This document shows positions 5,445 through 14,746 of a DNA stretch of 24,435 nt, piece by piece. A program made the position numbers and the translations under genes. Under the pieces are notes generated by a model. It was not told the DNA's origin. It made no database searches and worked only from the letters and a program-made list of their open reading frames with translations. How positions within the stretch are numbered: the first letter of the stretch is position 1; every line of letters starts with the position of its first letter. This DNA is from a virus, in the IMG/VR virus record IMGVR_UViG_3300017437_000031, positions 1 to 24,435 of that record; one strand, given 5' to 3'.

Positions 5445-6024
5445 GAAGCAAAAGTCACCAGAAGACACGTCTGACAAGCAGGCGGGTCAAATCTTAGAGG
5501 TGCTGTCAGCGTTAAACTTATCTCTCAAGGAACTCGGCGAGCGGGTAAATAAGATTGAAGTTGGCATGGAACACGCAGCCGTGCCCGTAGAGGTGATTAA
5601 GGAGTCCATTGCACCAACACCGCATTTTCCAGCTCGCGTGCCGGTAGAGATTGAGAATACGGTGCGGGAGTTCTTCGGGCCGAGTTTTGGGATTAAGGTA
5701 GAGGATTGCATTGACAAGCCCGCGTATATCTTAACGATTGACGTGCCGACTAAGTTTGCGTCAAGCATGGTCTTTCAAGGCGAGGTTGAGTATAAGTGCC
5801 TCTGTGGGCAAAAGGGGAAATATGTCCGCAAGGAGACAACTGCTGACTTTGCCTGTCCGAATGTTACCTGCACACGGGTCATCCCTATTCAGAAAGACCT
5901 GCGGGTAAAGGTTATCGGTCATGCCGAGGGCATCCCGAAGATACGCGAATGGTGTGGACTCGTGCGGAAGCAAATTATGTCTTACATGAACGATAAAGAT
6001 GCGCCGTTGGCACTCTTAACTTAA
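5431..6024 (+). CDS. Hypothetical protein with a four-cysteine zinc-ribbon-like insert
   Basis: 197 aa. The N-terminal 55 residues contain a helical heptad-like stretch (ILEVLSALNLSLKELGERVNKIE), a possible short coiled coil. The C-terminal half has CLCG followed by CPNVTC, four cysteines spaced like a zinc ribbon between beta-rich segments (FQGEVEYKC, KYVRKETT). A basic C-terminal helix (IREWCGLVRKQIMSYM) follows. It lies between the portal-associated genes and the scaffold gene. A DNA- or head-binding role is conceivable, but no function can be named. Confidence 0.6.
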   Translation: MPYVKKQKSPEDTSDKQAGQILEVLSALNLSLKELGERVNKIEVGMEHAAVPVEVIKESIAPTPHFPARVPVEIENTVREFFGPSFGIKVEDCIDKPAYILTIDVPTKFASSMVFQGEVEYKCLCGQKGKYVRKETTADFACPNVTCTRVIPIQKDLRVKVIGHAEGIPKIREWCGLVRKQIMSYMNDKDAPLALLT

Positions 6025-6030
6025 TTAACC

Positions 6031-6098
6031 GTGGAGGGCCGTGGGGTGCTGGAGGATACCCCCAGGCTCTTCACACCAAGCACGCGGTCAGGGCCGTG
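6031..6098 (+). promoter_or_regulatory. Structured, SD-less leader of the scaffold gene
   Basis: The 113-nt gap before the scaffold gene holds a direct repeat AGGGCCGTG (6035-6043 and 6090-6098). Between the copies, GTGCT pairs with AGCAC around an inner CTGG/CCAG hairpin. No ORF fits here, and the scaffold ATG has no Shine-Dalgarno. The role is unknown; a regulatory mRNA fold is inferred. Confidence 0.3.
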
Positions 6099-6137
6099 AT
6101 ACCAACCTGCCAGACGGGACTGGTTCACCCGACATAT

Positions 6138-6902
6138 ATGGATGAAGAAAAAGATTTCGCTGCTGCTCTCACGAAAGCGGCGAAGGAGTTAGACGATATT
6201 GCGGCGGAGCAACCCGCCCAGGAGCCGTCACCTGAACCAACCACTGATTCGCGCGGGAGTGAACCCGATATCAACACCGAACCAGCTGAGACCGCCGTTG
6301 AAGAGGAGGACAAGGAAGAAAAGAAAGAGGACATCTCTATCCCGAAGTATCGCTTTGATGAGGTGGCGAGGGAACTGCGCGAGACAAAAGCTCTTATCCA
6401 AGAGCTGAAGAAGGGTCAAGAACCGAAAGAAGAAGAGGACGACCTTGATCCAGCAACCCTGGAGCTCATCAAAAAAGGCGTAAAGAAACTTGGCCTGCTG
6501 ACGAAGGAAGAGGCATCCCAGCTTTCCTACGACCAAATTATCAAGCAACAGGAGGATGTCTTTCTCAAGGAGCACCCAGAGTACAACTCTGATAGCGATC
6601 TCCGTGGGCGACTACTCGCGGAACTTTCCTACTACAACACGAAGCCAACTGACCCAACTCAATACCGTGAAAAGGTACTGGAGCGTGTCCATCAGACACT
6701 CTCTCCAGCTAAAGACACGAATGAGAGCAAGGTCAGGGCGAAACTTCAACGTGAGCGTACTGCCTCTCTTGGCTCTGGGGGTGGCGCGACAAAGGTCTCA
6801 CCGAAAGAACCAGCGTTAAGCCAAGCTGAAGTTGATTACTACCGAAATACCGGCTGGTCTAACGAAACGATTGAAAAGTATTTCGGAGTGAAGATTACTT
6901 AA
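6138..6902 (+). CDS. Putative capsid scaffolding protein
   Basis: 254 aa from ATG 6138; a GTG at 6096 in the same frame would add 14 unrelated-looking residues. The protein is very acidic and hydrophilic. It has an Ala/Glu/Pro-rich disordered N-terminal third, then a strongly charged helical segment (YRFDEVARELRETKALIQELKK), and a C-terminal helix-rich end (ALSQAEVDYYRNTGWSNETIEKYFG). Composition, length and location one gene upstream of the capsid gene are typical of internal scaffolds that nucleate procapsids and then leave. Scaffolds diverge quickly, so the call relies on context and composition. Confidence 0.7.
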   Translation: MDEEKDFAAALTKAAKELDDIAAEQPAQEPSPEPTTDSRGSEPDINTEPAETAVEEEDKEEKKEDISIPKYRFDEVARELRETKALIQELKKGQEPKEEEDDLDPATLELIKKGVKKLGLLTKEEASQLSYDQIIKQQEDVFLKEHPEYNSDSDLRGRLLAELSYYNTKPTDPTQYREKVLERVHQTLSPAKDTNESKVRAKLQRERTASLGSGGGATKVSPKEPALSQAEVDYYRNTGWSNETIEKYFGVKIT

Positions 6903-7376: not shown

Positions 7377-7611
7377 ATGCCTTTTCTATTGGATCAGGCG
7401 GCTGACCTCACTAACAAGGCGATTCAGAAGATCTGGTTAAAGAGCTCTGAGCTTGATGACAAGAACTTTGAGAAGTATGTCAACGTAAGCACGGGCGTGA
7501 AGGATTACCTCTATCGGGATTCCTCACTCTCGGGGCTTGGGACGGTGTCTTTTCACCCTGAAAATGCCAACATTGTTGAGGTGCAGCCAGTACAGGGTTT
7601 TGACCAACTCT
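7377..7611 (+). CDS. Capsid gene exon 1
   Basis: Codons 1-78 plus the first base of codon 79. The open frame continues to TAG at 7623-7625, but those last 14 nt belong to the intron. The last 7 exon bases CAACTCT pair with the intron guide GGAGTTG at 7626-7632, with a U.G pair at the splice site. The join to exon 2 creates a Tyr codon (T+AT). Confidence 0.8.
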
Positions 7612-9968
7612 TGGAAACTGTGTAGGGAGTTGTAAAATCATCTCTGATCTACGGCGAACGCTGAAATGCCAACGCCTCGCAAGCAGGGAAACCGTGCAGC
7701 GACAACGACTGAGCGAGATGACGCCAAAAGGTGAAGCAACAGTCTGAACATGGGGAAATACAACTCCATGAGAAGTCTCCGAAGCGGGACTTCCGTACAT
7801 TTACAACTACAAGTGTAGTAAAAATGTAGCGTAACATTGTGATACACAAGAAGCGTACAGCGGTCTGCTTTCATTCTCATTGCAGCAATGGAAGTTTGGT
7901 ATCCAGGCACGTGACCTGGAGGCCTTTACGCAGCAGTTATATATAGCGGCAGTCAGAAAACGTGAGCAGAACTTTGCGGAGCGACTATCGGTGGCCACCG
8001 CGGCTACCTATGTGCAGCAAAACGATACTGGGGCGAGAACGGTCGCTACCACTGGAGGTGATGGGATTGCGTTAATACCTAGCGCAATAAAAATTCTCTT
8101 TAATTTTCTTGAAAACCTAGCGATAGGCAACAAGGCGCAAGCAAGAGTAATCTGTGCAGCGTGAACGACTAAACAAGAGAACACCTGAAAAGGTGATGTG
8201 ATAGTCTGAACAGCACGAATAATCGTAAAAAATGTGCTGATAGAGACCCGAAGAGGTTTCTACGTCCTTTGATAAAGTAGTTGAACAAAGGGGCGATCTT
8301 CTAAAAGATGCCAATCTTCAAAAACAATTACGAGAGTTGTTTGAAGATTTCAAAGGAAAGTAACAAATTGTTGGAAGCGCGGCTCACACTCGCGAAGACG
8401 GTAAATATGTACTGCCGTCATACTCTATAACTTGTTATGTATAAAGAGTAGTTTCGCAAAAAGTTCTTTGAAAATTTACCCTAGGCAATAAAATCTTCTC
8501 TGATCAATGTGGAAACTCTTCATTGGTTGTACGGCAATACAATCATTAAGACAACCACCTACAAGTAAGATTACAAGACAAATCCGTGAATACTGGCGTC
8601 AAAGACTTACAGTAGCAGAGACTAAGTGAGAAGACACCCTGCAAGAGGGTGAAGCGATAGTCCGAACTTATAGGAAACTATAAGAAGAAGGCAGAAATGT
8701 CCTTCTCCACTTTTAATAAGTGAGCAACAAAAATGGGTACTGCCTGGGGGAACTTGGTAACCGATGGGACGACGACCAACATGGATTTGGTGTGCACTTT
8801 CGCTTAAACATTGTTCTTTACAATGCGAAAGTCAAAAATTCAAAGTTCATGTAAAATCTCTACTGATTTCATGGAAACCCTGAAGATTCATAACTCAACA
8901 TAGGCAAACACATGCAACCTATCAACTATGAAAAAAAGGCAACCAGATGCAAGCAAACTCCTGTTTTTTTAGCCTATATTGCTGGAATCATTGACGGTGA
9001 GGGAAGTATCTTTATCGCAAAGGTGCTCAACAAAAAAAGTGGAACATGGCAACATATCCTTCGCGTTACATGTGGTATGTGTGATGAAGCGCCAATCAGA
9101 TTGATTCGTGGTGCGTTCAACTACAACAGCCGTACGTGTCTCTATCGTCAAGGTAGGAAAGAATCATATCGCCCAATCTACCAGTGGATTATTTCTGGGC
9201 CGATGGCACTGAATTTTCTACGTAAGATAGAGCCGTATCTCTTGGTAAAAAGAAAACAGGCATTACTAGGAATCAAGTTTCAAGAAGATAAAAACAACGG
9301 AAGATCTAACACGTCTGGTGGAAGAAAAGTTTCTGGTGGCACGCTCAATGAGCGAGAAAAAGATTATCTTCAAATGAAAGTATTAAATGGTACAGTTTTG
9401 CAGCAGCAACGACTAAGTGTAGAGACCACCGAAGAGGTGGAAGCGATAGTCTGAACTCGTAAGAAATTACGAGAAGGAAACCCGAAGAGGTTTTCTCACC
9501 CTTTATTGGGGAGTAACAACATTGTATGAATACGACGCGCATCGTGCGGCACTCCGCACCGCGTCACTCATAGTAGACCCGCGTGGCAACCCGATGGACT
9601 TGGAACCTTCTTTGTTCATCTTCCGCCGAGGGTCAGCGTCATACTTCCGCGCCCAGGAAATCTTGGGAGCCGTGAAGAAGGGACAGCTTCCTGGTGGTAA
9701 CGACAACGATGGTTCTGGAGTACCAGCATTCAAAATCCTCGCATTGCCCTACATGACCAACGCGGCAAACGCCTATTGGTTTGGGCTGGACGAGCGATAC
9801 AAGAATGCTAAGTATGGCCTTCAGTACCTTGAATCACAGCCGATTAGTTTGGATCCAGTACACGTCGTGTATCGGACAAAAGAGATCCAATGGACGGTGC
9901 AACATCTTTATGCCTGGGGGCACAATGATTCGCGTCCTTGGATAATTTCGGAAGGGGATAATTCCTGA
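7377..9968 (+). CDS. Major capsid protein, five exons, interrupted by four group I introns
   Basis: Spliced join: 7377-7611, 7842-8072, 8371-8402, 8736-8786, 9525-9968, giving 993 nt and 330 aa. No single frame encodes it: stops occur inside each intron. After excision the product reads through MPFLLDQAADLTNKAIQKIW, GFDQLY|TQEAYSGLLSF, WKFGIQARDLEAF, GGDGIA|FGSAAHTREDG|GTAW, TTTNMD|YEYDAHRAALRTAS and VDPRGNPMDLE, where bars mark junctions. These match in order and spacing my memory of an HK97-fold-type capsid family of about 330 aa, so the cut sites are well constrained. The protein forms the head shell. The scaffold gene upstream and GroES in the operon fit. Main uncertainty: junction 1 by one or two bases. 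Confidence 0.88.
7612..7841 (+). ncRNA. Group I intron 1 of the capsid gene
   Basis: 230 nt, no ORF. P1 is exon CAACTCT (7605-7611) with GGAGTTG (7626-7632). P10 is GTGTA (7620-7624) with exon-2 TACAC (7843-7847). P3 is TCATCTC (7638-7644) with GAGATGA (7715-7721). P7 is GACT (7707-7710) with AGTC (7741-7744), within the diagnostic CAACGACT...AGTCTGAAC. P6 is capped by GAAA (GCAGG/CCGTGC), P9 is CATGG/CCATG and P9.1 carries CCGAAG. The intron ends in G. An alternative pair of sites (after 7612 and after 7839) keeps the frame but adds one residue. Confidence 0.88.
7842..8072 (+). CDS. Capsid gene exon 2
   Basis: 231 nt, codons 79-155 plus the first base of codon 156. It encodes YTQEAYSGLLSF through GGDGIA and includes the WKFGIQ segment. 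Its open frame continues to a TGA at 8162-8164, well into the next intron. It has no start codon of its own at its real 5' end. Confidence 0.85.
8073..8370 (+). ncRNA. Group I intron 2 of the capsid gene
   Basis: 298 nt. P1 is exon ATTGCGT (8066-8072) with GCGCAAT (8082-8088), a perfect 7 bp with U.G at the splice site. P3 is TTCTCTT (8094-8100) with AAGAGAA (8175-8181). P7 is GACT (8167-8170) with AGTC (8203-8206). P8 is CACCT/AGGTG and P9.1 is GAGACC-CGAAGA-GGTTTC. The 3' domain carries an extra long hairpin (AATCTTCA / TGAAGATT) enclosed by CCTTTG/CAAAGG. The intron ends AACAAATTG, like introns 1, 4 and the fibre intron. No endonuclease ORF remains. Confidence 0.92.
8371..8402 (+). CDS. 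Capsid gene exon 3 (32-nt mini-exon)
   Basis: With the T carried over from exon 2 it encodes 11 residues, FGSAAHTREDG, which bridge GGDGIA and GTAWGNLV without gap or overlap. The exon is bounded by the intron 2 terminal G (8370) and by the U of the intron 3 P1 helix (8402). It is far too short to be found as an ORF. Confidence 0.88.
8403..8735 (+). ncRNA. Group I intron 3 of the capsid gene
   Basis: 333 nt. P1 is exon GACGGT (8397-8402) with GCCGTC (8414-8419), U.G at the splice site. P10 is GTACT (8409-8413) with exon-4 GGTAC (8736-8740), directly adjacent to the P1 guide. P3 is TCTTCTC (8494-8500) with GAGAAGA (8628-8634). P7 is GACT (8620-8623) with AGTC (8659-8662), here AGTCCGAAC instead of AGTCTGAAC. 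P8 is CACCCT/AGGGTG and P9 is CTTATAG-GAAA-CTATAAG. A P2-like hairpin (ACTCT/AGAGT) follows P1. No ORF is present. Confidence 0.92.
8736..8786 (+). CDS. Capsid gene exon 4 (51-nt mini-exon)
   Basis: Exactly 17 codons in phase 0, GTAWGNLVTDGTTTNMD. It starts after the terminal G of intron 3 and ends at the T of GAT, which is the U of the next P1 helix. The apparent open frame continues for another seven codons to TAA, but those bases are intron 4. Confidence 0.88.
8787..9524 (+). ncRNA. Group I intron 4 of the capsid gene, carrying a LAGLIDADG ORF
   Basis: 738 nt. P1 is exon ACATGGAT (8779-8786) with GTTCATGT (8845-8852), 8 bp with U.G at the splice site. P10 is ATTCA (8838-8842) with exon-5 TGAAT (9527-9531). 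A large hairpin in L1 (ACTTTCGC/GCGAAAGT, then CATTGT/ACAATG) brings the guide close. P3 is TCTCTAC (8857-8863) with GTAGAGA (9419-9425). P7 is GACT (9411-9414) with AGTC (9448-9451). P8 is CCACC/GGTGG, P9 CTCGT/ACGAG, P9.1 AACC-CGAAGA-GGTT. The nuclease ORF fills the region between the P3 5' strand and P7, probably the P6 loop. The intron ends AACAACATTG. Confidence 0.93.
8912..9454 (+). CDS. Intron-encoded LAGLIDADG homing endonuclease
   Basis: 180 aa with one LAGLIDADG helix, LAYIAGIIDGEG (residues 20-31), ending in the acidic pair region that binds the catalytic metal. One motif and this length suggest a homodimer of the I-CreI type. It should cut intron-less capsid alleles near the exon 4/exon 5 junction and so drive homing of its host intron. 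The C-terminal 20 or so residues are translated from the catalytic core (P3', P7, P8), and the TGA stop lies within the conserved AGTCTGA of P7. The ATG has only a weak AGG upstream. Codon use is more A-rich than the neighbouring capsid exons, as expected for a mobile gene. Confidence 0.92.
   Translation: MQPINYEKKATRCKQTPVFLAYIAGIIDGEGSIFIAKVLNKKSGTWQHILRVTCGMCDEAPIRLIRGAFNYNSRTCLYRQGRKESYRPIYQWIISGPMALNFLRKIEPYLLVKRKQALLGIKFQEDKNNGRSNTSGGRKVSGGTLNEREKDYLQMKVLNGTVLQQQRLSVETTEEVEAIV
9525..9968 (+). CDS. Capsid gene exon 5
   Basis: Codons 184-330 and the TGA stop. It encodes YEYDAHRAALRTASLIVDP, then RRGSASYFRAQEILGAVKKG, GLQYLESQPISLDP and a C-terminal GHNDSRPW. These segments look like the second half of an HK97-fold capsid protein. 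It starts after the terminal G of intron 4 in phase 0. Confidence 0.88.
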   Translation, partial: YEYDAHRAALRTASLIVDPRGNPMDLEPSLFIFRRGSASYFRAQEILGAVKKGQLPGGNDNDGSGVPAFKILALPYMTNAANAYWFGLDERYKNAKYGLQYLESQPISLDPVHVVYRTKEIQWTVQHLYAWGHNDSRPWIISEGDNS

Positions 9969-9973
9969 TTTTC

Positions 9974-10048
9974 GGCTAATTATAGCCAATTTCAAGGAGT
10001 GGTGATGGCAATTATAAAGTTGGGGTGGGTAGCTAGTTTATCCACCCC
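9974..10048 (+). terminator. Two hairpins in the capsid-HNH gap, terminator-like
   Basis: GGCTA-ATTA-TAGCC (9974-9987) starts six bases after the capsid stop. An 11-bp stem runs from 10022 (GGGGTGGG) to 10048 (TCCACCCC) with a CTAGT loop. A T5 run occurs only about 17 nt later, so intrinsic termination is possible but not typical. The stem could also limit or time expression of the HNH gene. Confidence 0.35.
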
Positions 10049-10082
10049 TCCACCACATAACATATTTTTAACTAGCAAGAAT

Positions 10083-10610
10083 ATGAGAATCCATTACAAA
10101 GATTGTCTCATTTGTGGAAGTAGATTTTGGAAAAAAATAACTACTTCAAAAAATGAATGGGACAACCAAACAAAATACTGCTCTCGTCAATGTTATTGGG
10201 AAGCAAGAAAGGGCGGCATAAAATATCCCGCTTACTGGAAGAGTAAACATCTGCCTGAAGATTACCGAAAAAGAATAAGTGAGACCTGTAAACGCAAAGG
10301 CATCAAGCCAAAAATTATCTCGGTAAGATACGGAAAAGATAATAACAAGTGGAAAGGTGGAATCACGCCACCTTACGCTAAAATACGGCACTCATTTGAG
10401 TATAAACAATGGCGTAAGGCAGTATTTAAGCGTGATAATTGGACATGTCAGATGTGTGGTGCACAAAACGTGATACTCAACACAGACCATATAAAACCAT
10501 TTGCCCTATACCCTAAATTACGGATGAACTTGGCAAATGGACGAACGCTCTGTGTACCGTGTCATCAAAGTGTACCGACTACTGGCTTAAATCAGTGGAC
10601 AAAAAGATAA
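10083..10610 (+). CDS. Free-standing HNH homing endonuclease
   Basis: 175 aa. The N-terminus has a four-Cys zinc motif, CLIC (C8, C11) and CSRQC (C33, C37), typical of HNH-associated DNA-binding modules. A basic linker follows (KRISETCKRKGIKPK). The C-terminal HNH fold has CQMC, the catalytic-type NTDHIKPF, an Asn in RMNLANG and CVPCH. It would nick or cut a phage target to promote its own spread. A same-frame ATG at 10005 with a good AAGGAG site (9994-9999) would add 26 residues that do not resemble HNH proteins and would cover the strong 10022-10048 hairpin, so 10083 is chosen tentatively. It is A/T-richer than the neighbouring genes. Confidence 0.87.
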   Translation: MRIHYKDCLICGSRFWKKITTSKNEWDNQTKYCSRQCYWEARKGGIKYPAYWKSKHLPEDYRKRISETCKRKGIKPKIISVRYGKDNNKWKGGITPPYAKIRHSFEYKQWRKAVFKRDNWTCQMCGAQNVILNTDHIKPFALYPKLRMNLANGRTLCVPCHQSVPTTGLNQWTKR

Positions 10611-10801: not shown

Positions 10802-10987
10802 ATGGCAATTCATGATGGATTCCCCGTCGTACGGGGAAAATCATTTTACGCGAATGGACGGTCGCAAGGAGATGGGCGCGGGTCATTTTATTTCTTTGAC
10901 GCCCAGGAAGGAACTGATCCACTAGCAACAGCGACAACGCGCGGACTCTTTGTGGATTCAACTAACCGTCTCTCGTACTGGAACGGT
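10802..10987 (+). CDS. Fibre gene exon 1
   Basis: 62 codons in phase 0, MAIHDGFPVVRGKSFYANGR through LSYWNG. The open frame continues for one codon to a TAG in the intron. The exon ends AACGGT, which pairs with the intron guide GCCGTT at 10996-11001. Confidence 0.85.
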
Positions 10988-13766
10988 AGATAGTTGCCGT
11001 TAAAAAATCCTCTCTGATATACGGCGAAAATCTTGAAGAAGATAACGCCTCGCAAGGTTCCTCACAAGGTGATACCGGCGACAACGACTGAGCGAGAGGA
11101 GCGCAGAAATGCGTATGCAACAGTCTGAACACGGACAATAACAATAAGAAATCCGTGAGAGATACCCGAAGAGGTGTCTCCGCTCGTTGACAACTAATGC
11201 TTGGTTAATACTGACAGGAGCGATTTGAAACATGGTTTTAGGTAGAAAAGATATATCTTTGCTCAACAAAATAAAGCATTAGTTGACGAGTAGTAACATA
11301 TTGACATCTACGGTGCGCTTGACTGGAGAAGGCGGCGTGGCGACAACGTGGGAAGGTCTTTACGCGGTAGACGCGACCTTTGCGTTGACAGCCGCGACAT
11401 GGACAATTACACAATCGGCAGCCGCGGCACTCCTAACGCTCAACAAAACGAACGTCGGGGCAGGAGCAGTCATCGCAATCACTAACTCTGGCACAGGCGA
11501 CGACATCACGGGAAACGCCGGCAACTGGTCAGTGACAGCAGGAGGGGCTATCTCTGTTGTGTCGGTGACCTCAACTGGAGCAATCACCTGTACAGCAATT
11601 TCAGATAACGCTGCGGGAGCCACACTTCAGGTTGATGGCAACGCGGGAGGTGGGGTGGACATTGGCTCTATCTCTACTGGTGGTATCACGCTTGGCCGAG
11701 CGACAACGATTACGACTGGCGGGCTTACGGTCACTGACACAGGAATTACGGTCTCTGATGGCATTACGGATTTGATTGACAACTCCAACGTGCTGTCAGG
11801 CCTTCGGTTGACCAACAACACCGTGACAACCTTTGGGGCTGGTGGCGCGTCCACTGGCGTGGCGTTGCTTCGTTCCACCTCACTGACGACTGGCTCGCTT
11901 CTCTCGCTTCAGTTGGCAGAAGGAGCGTTAGTTGGTGGATTTTATTTAAGGTGTTTTGACACCACTGGCGGCGCTGATGTATTTACCGTCGGAGAAGATG
12001 GAGCAGCCGTCATCACTGGGTTAGAAGGGTCAAACATGCTGACGGTGACTGCTGGCGATGTGGTTGTTTCTGATGGTTCACTTCTCATTACTGACGATGA
12101 TAACGCGGCCTCATTCAGCGTCACCAACAATACCGCTACCACGGCGAATGTCATCGCCTTTCAAGGTTCAGGCGTCTTTACGGGGACGGGGACAAGCGCG
12201 TTTGTGTCCATTGAGCCGTCTGGCTTGACTACGGGCACGATCATTGACTTGACTTCAGCGACATTGACATCAGGCAACGGCATCACCATGACTCTGGCTG
12301 GGTTGACAAGTGGCGTTGGCCTCTCAATCACGGCAGCCGCGGCAACCACCTCAGCGGGTGTTGTAACAATTAACTCAACCATCACCTCAGGAAGTCAGTT
12401 ACTTATCACTGGTGGCGGCGCCGGCATGCTTGTCGGTGGCACAAACATTGAAGTAGTAATGGGTGCGGCAGTGACCGGCACGGGACTTTCTATTACGAAT
12501 ATTGGTGTGTACACTGGCGCGTCTGGGATTCTTGATATTGATGCTGACTCGCTGACAACGGGACGGGTGGTAGACATACTTTGTGGTGATATTACAACAG
12601 GCCGCGCGCTCTCCATTGACATGGGGAATGGCGTCTATACGGGCACAGGCGCGGTGGTGATTACGGGTACTGGTGTCACAACTGGCGTTGTCTTTGTGCT
12701 TACGGGCAACGGTGTCATTACAGGCGCAGGACGATTAGCGTCATTTACCTCAACAGGATTAGTTGATGGGGTCGCCGTTGAACATACCTACTCGGCAATG
12801 ACCACGGGGACGGGTGAGCAATTTGTCTGTGATGCGCTTACCACGGGAAACATCCTGTCGCTCACCTCTACGGGAGTGGTTATAACCACGGGTGAAGTTC
12901 TAAACATCGTGGCAAACTCTGCTACGACGTCTACTGGCTTGCTCCGAATCTCTGGCACCGCTCTCACTGATGGATGGTGTGGGCAATTTACTGGCGGTGG
13001 GGCAAACATCACTGCGACTGGCGGCGTGCTTGACCTTGTCTGTGGCGCGTCTACTACAGGAGGCGGTCTTCGGGTTGTCTCAACTGGTGCTTATGTTGGT
13101 ACCGTTGGATTGTTAACCTTAACAGCTAATACGGCAGCGACTGGAGTGCTCGCAGTCATCACGGGAAACGGGCTTACGACCGGCACGGGGCTTCTGGTTA
13201 CGTCGTCTGGAACCATGACATCTGCTGGTGAAGGTCTTGTTAATATCGTTGGTTCAGGCATCACGACTGGTTTTGGACTCAAGATTGACTTGACTGAAGC
13301 AACGCTGACCACAGGTTTCTACCTCAACTGCTTCGATGACACGGCAGTCGCGTCAGTGTTTTCTGTTGGTGAAGACGGTGTTACCACGATTGCTGGTGCA
13401 GCTAGTACCACGGTACTTGCCTTAACTGCTGGCAACGCGGTGCTTTCGGCTGGTTTTGTACGCACCACACGTCAAGCCGTTACACTTGGTGTCGCAGCTG
13501 CTACATTCGCAGCTACAAGTAACGTGGTTGAGGTAACTGGTGATGGCGGTGGCAACAGTGTCACGACCATTACCGGTGGCGGTTCAGGGATGGTCATCAC
13601 GCTCATTTTCGTTGATGGCAACGTGACGATTGTCAATGACAACACTCACGCTGCTAACACGATTGACTTAGTCGGCGCAAACACGACGTTTGCTGACGAC
13701 GCAACCCTAACGCTTGTCCATGATGGGACGGCATGGTACGAGGTGGCGCGGTCGGTGAATGCTTAA
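10802..13766 (+). CDS. Large beta-repeat fibre or head/tail surface protein, interrupted by a group I intron
   Basis: Spliced join 10802-10987 and 11304-13766, 882 aa. The junction reads LSYWNG|TSTVRLTGEGG in phase 0. After a 75-residue N-terminal part, the protein is made of many short repeats rich in Thr, Gly, Ser, Val, Ile and Ala (LTTGxxLxL, TGTGLxI, GVYTGxGxL), spaced about 15-20 residues. This is typical of a beta-solenoid or fibre shaft. A longer duplication reads GFYLRCFD...FTVGEDG and GFYLNCFD...FSVGEDG near the start and end of the shaft. The C-terminal end (VTIVNDNTHAANTIDLVG...LVHDGTAWYEVARS) resembles compact fibre-tip domains. A virion surface role is likely; whether it is on head or tail is not decided. 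Confidence 0.8.
10988..11303 (+). ncRNA. Group I intron of the fibre gene
   Basis: 316 nt, no ORF. P1 is exon AACGGT (10982-10987) with GCCGTT (10996-11001), U.G at the splice site. P3 is TCCTCTC (11008-11014) with GAGAGGA (11094-11100). P7 is GACT (11086-11089) with AGTC (11122-11125). P8 is GCGCA-GAAA-TGCGT-like, P9 ACGGA/TCCGT and P9.1 GAGATACC-CGAAGA-GGTGTCTC. An extra 12-bp P9.2 stem pairs 11191-11202 with 11274-11285. It ends AACATATTG. Its core (TACGGCG, CGCCTCGCAAG, GGCGACAACGACTGAGCGAGA) is nearly the same as capsid intron 1, so the two are recent relatives. Confidence 0.93.
11304..13766 (+). CDS. Fibre gene exon 2
   Basis: 820 codons plus TAA, starting TSTVRLTGEGG after the intron terminal G in phase 0. 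It contains the whole repetitive shaft and the C-terminal domain. The in-frame ATG-less stretch 11283-11303 belongs to the intron. Confidence 0.85.
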   Translation, partial: TSTVRLTGEGGVATTWEGLYAVDATFALTAATWTITQSAAAALLTLNKTNVGAGAVIAITNSGTGDDITGNAGNWSVTAGGAISVVSVTSTGAITCTAISDNAAGATLQVDGNAGGGVDIGSISTGGITLGRATTITTGGLTVTDTGITVSDGITDLIDNSNVLSGLRLTNNTVTTFGAGGASTGVALLRSTSLTTGSLLSLQLAEGALVGGFYLRCFDTTGGADVFTVGEDGAAVITGLEGSNMLTVTAGDVVVSDGSLLITDDDNAASFSVTNNTATTANVIAFQGSGVFTGTGTSAFVSIEPSGLTTGTIIDLTSATLTSGNGITMTLAGLTSGVGLSITAAAATTSAGVVTINSTITSGSQLLITGGGAGMLVGGTNIEVVMGAAVTGTGLSITNIGVYTGASGILDIDADSLTTGRVVDILCGDITTGRALSIDMGNGVYTGTGAVVITGTGVTTGVVFVLTGNGVITGAGRLASFTSTGLVDGVAVEHTYSAMTTGTGEQFVCDALTTGNILSLTSTGVVITTGEVLNIVANSATTSTGLLRISGTALTDGWCGQFTGGGANITATGGVLDLVCGASTTGGGLRVVSTGAYVGTVGLLTLTANTAATGVLAVITGNGLTTGTGLLVTSSGTMTSAGEGLVNIVGSGITTGFGLKIDLTEATLTTGFYLNCFDDTAVASVFSVGEDGVTTIAGAASTTVLALTAGNAVLSAGFVRTTRQAVTLGVAAATFAATSNVVEVTGDGGGNSVTTITGGGSGMVITLIFVDGNVTIVNDNTHAANTIDLVGANTTFADDATLTLVHDGTAWYEVARSVNA

Positions 13767-14161: not shown

Positions 14162-14746
14162 ATGGCTGGAGATGGAAGATTTGTCGTAGGGCATGTTACA
14201 TGGAATAAAGGTTTGCCCGCGTGGAATCGTGGAACAAAAGGAATTGTTAAGCCAAATAAAGGATCATTCAAAAAAGGACACAAATCTTTACTTGAAAAAC
14301 ACACCGAAGAGACCAAACGTAAGATAGGAAATGCGAATCGTGGAAGGAAACAATCTGAGGAAGTAATAAGAAAGAGAAGAATAAGAATGATGGGTCATGT
14401 AATGCCAGAAAAAACAAGAAAAGCAATAGCGGCAGGAATAAAGAAGAAATGGGATAGGATTGGTAGGATGAGTAAGGAAGAACGGATATGGCAAAAACAT
14501 AAAAGACATCGTGTCCTTAAATTACTTCGCCAAAATAACAATTTACACACATACGGAGAATGGGAAATTCTGAAAAAACAATATGATTTCACTTGTCCCT
14601 CGTGTAAAAAACAGGAACCAGAAATTAAACTCACCGAAGATCACATCATTCCTCTTTCAAAAGGTGGATCAGATTCTATTGAAAATATACAACCGTTATG
14701 TGGACATTGTAATGCAGTAAAGCATACAAAAATAATAAAATTCTAG
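14162..14746 (+). CDS. Free-standing HNH homing endonuclease with NUMOD3-like region
   Basis: 194 aa, starting 3 nt after the previous stop. The N-terminal half is very basic with NUMOD3-like DNA-binding repeats (KGHKSLLEKHTEETKRKIGN, NRGRKQSEEVIRKR). The C-terminal HNH domain has CPSC, EDHIIPLSKGG, an Asn in SIENIQPL and CGHCN, the metal and zinc ligands of the family. The gene is clearly richer in A (many AAA and AAT codons) than the flanking fibre genes, a sign of recent transfer. No intron core surrounds it, so it is an intergenic nuclease gene and differs from the HNH gene at 10083 in its N-terminal domain. Confidence 0.9.
   Translation: MAGDGRFVVGHVTWNKGLPAWNRGTKGIVKPNKGSFKKGHKSLLEKHTEETKRKIGNANRGRKQSEEVIRKRRIRMMGHVMPEKTRKAIAAGIKKKWDRIGRMSKEERIWQKHKRHRVLKLLRQNNNLHTYGEWEILKKQYDFTCPSCKKQEPEIKLTEDHIIPLSKGGSDSIENIQPLCGHCNAVKHTKIIKF

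Follow-up and report, generated by a model that had tools for sequence, protein, structure and literature searches.

We analysed a 24,435-nucleotide (nt) stretch of viral DNA (positions 1 to 24,435 of IMG/VR virus record IMGVR_UViG_3300017437_000031, hereafter the window), in which positions 7377-9968 hold five coding pieces lying in different frames. Joined across four inserts, these pieces form one gene, predicted to encode the major capsid protein of an uncultured tailed phage, and each insert has the features of a group I intron. The exons, the introns and the open reading frame (ORF) that they enclose are as follows (core positions refer to matches of the covariance model described below):

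7377..7611, plus strand: capsid exon 1, 235 nt, residues 1-78 and one base; 3' end CAACTCT at the cut, with the P1 U.G
7612..7841, plus strand: group I intron 1, 230 nt, no ORF; core 7632-7748, 60.6 bits, E 7e-11; P3 TCATCTC/GAGATGA
7842..8072, plus strand: capsid exon 2, 231 nt; placed by the joined frame and BLASTP to an intact homologue
8073..8370, plus strand: group I intron 2, 298 nt, no ORF; core 8088-8210, 73.1 bits, E 2e-13; P3 TTCTCTT/AAGAGAA
8371..8402, plus strand: capsid exon 3, 32 nt; FGSAAHTREDG, gap-free across 51 homologues
8403..8735, plus strand: group I intron 3, 333 nt, no ORF; core 8494-8662, E 9e-5; P3 TCTTCTC/GAGAAGA
8736..8786, plus strand: capsid exon 4, 51 nt, 17 whole codons; placed by frame, BLASTP and homologue alignment
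8787..9524, plus strand: group I intron 4, 738 nt, with a LAGLIDADG-type ORF inside; 3' part of the core 9359-9455, E 5e-5; P3 TCTCTAC (8857)/GTAGAGA (9419)
8912..9454, plus strand: LAGLIDADG-type putative homing endonuclease ORF in intron 4, 180 amino acids (aa); phrog_5046, E 2e-19
9525..9968, plus strand: capsid exon 5, 444 nt including the stop codon; placed by the joined frame and BLASTP

Joined, the five exons give 993 nt, corresponding to 330 codons and a stop codon with no internal stops; read unspliced, exons 1-4 each hit a stop within the next insert. The joined protein aligned by BLASTP with an uninterrupted homologue (contig L003, positions 5692-6702) at 46% identity over 323 aa (E 2e-100), with gaps lying away from the junctions, and an alignment of 51 uninterrupted homologues had a gap fraction of 0.0 around each of the four junctions. 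Further, a junction solver, which requires an exon-final U, a P1 helix with U.G, an intron-final G, the frame and the best alignment, placed junction 1 identically. Alternatives for intron 1 with the last exon base at 7612 or 7623 gave lower alignment scores and extra or altered residues, and were rejected. Neither stops nor frameshifts occur in the exons, whose product is 42-52% identical to relatives and retains the invariant residues. The original prediction, made from the window alone, had proposed four group I introns in a capsid gene and a single 330-codon frame, had expected BLASTP alignments without gaps at the junctions and had named misaligned intact homologues as one observation that would speak against it. 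Its coordinates and junctions are borne out by the joined frame, the homologues and the covariance model, L003 aligns without gaps there and all 51 homologues align across the four junctions.

Each of the introns has a P1 helix with U.G at the exon end, with 6, 6, 5 and 7 further pairs in introns 1-4, respectively, and each ends in G, as does a fifth intron found in a tail gene (see below). A perfect 7-bp P3 helix is present in every capsid intron, each of a different sequence, as are the P7 strands GACU(A/G) and (U/C)AGUC, and P10 comprises 6, 3, 5 and 5 pairs in introns 1-4. These helices agree with the predicted P1 with U.G, terminal G and P3/P7 pairing in all four introns, and with P10 in introns 1, 3 and 4, where it is indeed best. 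The further expectation that Rfam model RF00028 would recover all four introns failed: at the gathering score it gave zero matches in the window (three appeared at relaxed E-values), the best score being 37.1 bits (intron 3, E 3e-7) compared with a cut-off of 50. Therefore, we built a covariance model from relatives' introns, using six introns from other contigs and none from the window, and searched with filters off. The training helices covaried (score 0.63 vs 0.28 when shuffled and at most 0.17 when slid), with 12 of the 18 pairs counted changed on both sides, and P3 and P7 were among the helices that covary in the six introns. This model recovered all four capsid introns and the fifth intron in the window, and the remaining matches had E >2. 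In intron 4 it matched the 3' part and put the 5' half within the ORF region, the actual 5' P3 strand lying at 8857. The Rfam group I model has been described as incomplete (PMC11878797), and the RF00028 cut-off is a database threshold, not a structural trait; Rfam alone is too insensitive here.

The ORF in intron 4 carries the motif IAGIIDGEGSI and matches Pfam LAGLIDADG_1 at E 0.0028, which is below the Pfam cut-off; its match phrog_5046 is named HNH by PHROGs. Most of the longer introns of the family hold ORFs, of HNH or LAGLIDADG type where tested.

The joined gene lies downstream of terminase and portal-like genes, and the gene order in L003 is the same. An AlphaFold model of the homologue in contig L007, computed with 50 homologues in the input, had a predicted local distance difference test score (pLDDT) of 86.4, and its best PDB matches in Foldseek were the HK97-fold capsids of T5, Adjutor, SaPI1, Muddy and HK97 (E ~2e-10, probability 1.00, template modelling score ~0.5). 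Judged by this modelled fold, the joined gene encodes an HK97-fold major capsid protein. Direct IMG/VR searches with the joined capsid, the terminase or exon 5 alone returned no relative or one, and a search with the portal yielded the first intact capsid, an uninterrupted 337-aa homologue in L003 and L004. At least 115 contigs carry this capsid family; the set comes from iterated searches, with twice-listed contigs removed and without dereplication, and its counts depend on the peptide search patterns. No Pfam or PHROGs model matched the family, no capsid relatives were found among GenBank phages and no relatives of the capsid or the portal were found in the GTDB genomes searched.

Interrupted capsid genes occur in 21 of the 115 contigs listed, with 27 distinct introns (including those of the window) at ~17 sites, of which 12 were mapped by alignment and the later ones by sequence context. 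Such genes were solved in L010, L017, L026, L096, L097, L099, L100, L117, L137/L138, L142, L145/L146, L152, L153-155, L158 and L166, and the sequence of L089 ends within a further capsid intron. The capsid gene of L018 (1695-5430) has four introns at sites that differ from those of the window, and its exons include ones of 55, 108 and 104 nt; two of its introns carry HNH ORFs, which run on the opposite strand, and another carries a LAGLIDADG ORF. Most capsid relatives are without introns, and the sites vary between related phages. On the capsid tree the interrupted genes are scattered, with 8 changes, at least 6 of them forced by well-supported branches, and conservation around the 12 mapped sites exceeds that at random positions (entropy 1.06 vs 1.51, p ~0.001). 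The matches of the covariance model all fell in capsid genes, both in 740 kilobases (kb) from 84 sources (12 of 12) and in a further 235 kb (18 of 18). The capsid gene is nevertheless a preferred and not the sole intron target, because introns can escape the model if a nuclease gene splits their core and because a tail gene in contig L040 seems interrupted. At capsid residues 165-167, within TREDGG, the introns of L018, the window and L145 lie at three successive codon boundaries (D^GG, DG^G and DGG^, respectively), as if insertion or guide pairing had slid by 3 nt.

The nearest relative of intron 1 is an intron of L152 (78% identity over 195 nt) at the identical position, between T and ATACACAA. 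Similarly, the nearest relative of intron 4 is an intron of L100 at the identical position, directly after CAACATGGAT, and the LAGLIDADG-type ORFs of the two are 48% identical over 178 aa; the second L117 intron shares this site. A site within the codon of tryptophan 95 is common to seven contig sets. That the nearest relatives share a site fits a spread by homing, as read from the distribution of the introns. In L117, an 18-nt exon, ACTACTTACAACATGGAT (TTYNMD), lies between introns at 5529-5706 and 5725-6432: the covariance model gave two separate core matches within 5529-6432 (6.5e-11 and 6e-5), and the joined protein, VVYDG-TTYNMD-FDYDAL, matches uninterrupted relatives. A single-intron reading of this region left TTYNMD unmatched and was rejected, as the two-intron reading restores those residues.

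Overall, we consider it very probable that the window holds an HK97-fold capsid gene with four group I introns that homed in one by one, and that the capsid gene is a repeated target in this lineage. By the splicing mechanism general to group I introns, each intron would fold in the transcript around a P3-P8 core, the exon end would pair with an internal guide sequence to form P1 with U.G at the cut, an external guanosine would attack the 5' site and the freed exon would attack next, after the terminal G; four such events would yield the 330-codon message. The introns would be mobile elements that arrived singly via homing into conserved capsid sequence, with intron 4 retaining a LAGLIDADG-type nuclease and introns 1-3 either being relics or owing their movement to a nuclease from another locus. 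Several points weigh against this interpretation. P10 of intron 2 is weak, with 3 pairs. Support for P4-P6 and P8 comes from introns 1 and 2, where the covariance model covers them; in introns 3 and 4, where long inserts may intervene, these helices are putative. RF00028 at relaxed E-values gave three matches only (3e-7, 3.5e-4 and 0.07), all below the cut-off, and missed intron 1. Further, the HK97 fold was modelled on a homologue at 52% identity rather than on the joined protein, the activity of the nucleases behind the proposed homing is putative, and guanosine-started splicing in cells, together with its efficiency, is something we infer from sequence.

The introns may also regulate, in an array that serves the phage, if splicing were tuned (by the guanosine triphosphate level or by translation) or alternative, for example by skipping exon 4 to give a second capsid protein minus 17 residues. 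Exon 4 is exactly 17 whole codons, and therefore its skipping would keep the frame, and Twort orf142 and phage SIOphi provide documented cases of group I exon skipping (PMC11878797). However, the capsid family shows good conservation of the exon 4 segment (GTAWGNLVTDGTTTNMD), and neither the variation of intron sites among related phages nor the lack of introns in most relatives favours such a role, which we judge unlikely. Selfish invasion of conserved sites explains the distribution better than a conserved regulatory role, because the sites are scattered and many relatives are intronless. We likewise give little credence to a lineage-wide capsid landing pad (~17 sites, up to 4 introns per gene, exons down to 18 nt) combined with alternative or regulated capsid products, such as a form without exon 4.

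A decaying gene, with dead or non-splicing inserts in a phage (or defective relic) that makes no such capsid, could account for the lack of a nuclease ORF in three of the four introns, and the splicing of the capsid introns is itself deduced; yet the intact exons with their invariant residues, the preserved P1, P3, P7 and terminal G of all four introns and the existence in L018 of a second capsid gene with four introns make decay very unlikely. The pieces lie in several frames, as they might if inteins, translational bypassing or frameshifting united them at the protein or ribosome level, but all four inserts match the group I covariance model, and they carry in-frame stops and therefore are not inteins; we regard this group of explanations as extremely improbable. 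Finally, the window is a single metagenomic contig for which no near-identical copy was found, which would suit an assembly artefact or a chimera of metagenomic reads. Such an origin is scarcely credible for structured introns whose guide sequences match the capsid gene and that have counterparts at identical sites in the independent contigs L152, L100 and L117.

The fifth intron, which is absent from the original prediction, interrupts a tail gene downstream of the capsid gene:

10802..10987, plus strand: tail gene exon 1, 186 nt, begins MAIHDGFPV
10988..11303, plus strand: fifth group I intron, 316 nt; core 11002-11129, 62.9 bits, E 2.4e-11; P1 exon strand AACGGT up to the cut, P3 TCCTCTC/GAGAGGA perfect
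11304..13766, plus strand: tail gene exon 2, joins 10802-10987

Tail-gene homologues in other contigs are continuous across YWNG^TST, and the fifth intron and capsid intron 1 share 73% identity over 135 nt. In L040 (6168-7628), a stretch with LAGLIDADG-type and HNH ORFs seems to interrupt the tail gene that follows the capsid gene. Two HNH endonuclease ORFs of the window lie outside recognised introns, one directly after the capsid gene (9999-10610) and one among tail genes (14162-14746); these are perhaps free-standing homing genes that mobilise the ORF-less introns. Introns of L099 (884-1166) and L096 (4299-5007) occupy the same site and are 83% identical over 214 nt, one with an ORF and one without, a pair that suits the study of nuclease gain or loss. 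In L082 (4582-4986), a LAGLIDADG-type ORF in two parts lies between a cement-like gene and the capsid start.

Related arrangements have been described. In the crAss-like Zeta-group phage OLRF01000054, the capsid ORF is in five fragments, with group I intron-type domains encoded in three of the four stretches between them (Yutin et al. 2021, PMC7886860), much as in the window. OLRF01000054 is a large crAss-like gut phage whose introns were recognised chiefly by endonuclease domains, the section concerned giving no junctions or RNA structure (PMC7886860); in comparison with that account, the window differs in its capsid family, its three ORF-less introns, its micro-exons and the >100 relatives compared. 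Mycobacteriophage LittleE and lactococcal phage Tuc2009 also have a group I-type intron in the capsid gene, one each as opposed to the four of the window, and efficient splicing of the LittleE intron was proven by reverse transcription PCR (PMC3706429). Several group I introns per gene, short exons and exon skipping are known from Twort orf142 and the split genes of Bastillevirinae, but these have at most three introns per gene, chiefly in DNA polymerase, terminase and nucleotide metabolism genes (in Twort, tail tube) and not in the capsid gene; a small exon of unstated size is mentioned for phiNIT1 (PMC11878797). Mirusvirus HK97-type capsid genes have been invaded repeatedly by introns with homing endonucleases, at sites differing in close relatives (PMC12768974); those introns are spliceosomal and the viruses eukaryotic, whereas the introns of the window are group I.

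Among open-licence papers, we found none that treats this capsid family or describes phage group I introns separated by exons of 18-32 nt. The original prediction had stressed so short an internal exon, but the 32-nt exon of the window is not the shortest in the family, as that of L117 has 18 nt. Its statement that four self-splicing introns were not known from any phage major capsid gene must be narrowed in light of the five-fragment capsid of OLRF01000054, as far as it is described in the section concerned (PMC7886860), and of the single introns of LittleE and Tuc2009 (PMC3706429), the lineage and the micro-exons remaining new. Because of these precedents and those of Twort, Bastillevirinae and the mirusviruses, the kind of arrangement is already known; what is new is the lineage, the junctions at nucleotide level, the micro-exons and the repeated invasion of one gene at many sites.

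A single capsid message would need four ribozyme reactions, with exons as short as 32 and 51 nt to be joined (in a relative, 18 nt). This raises the question of how efficiently and accurately group I introns of phages can splice, because capsid protein is usually the most abundant product late in infection. Further, split capsid genes of uncultured phages evade gene callers and the Rfam cut-off, and therefore capsid-based surveys may overlook such phages. Members of the family carry 0, 1, 2 or 4 introns in the one gene, over ~17 sites, a natural series for comparing how introns are gained, which sites they enter, how nucleases are lost and what splicing costs.

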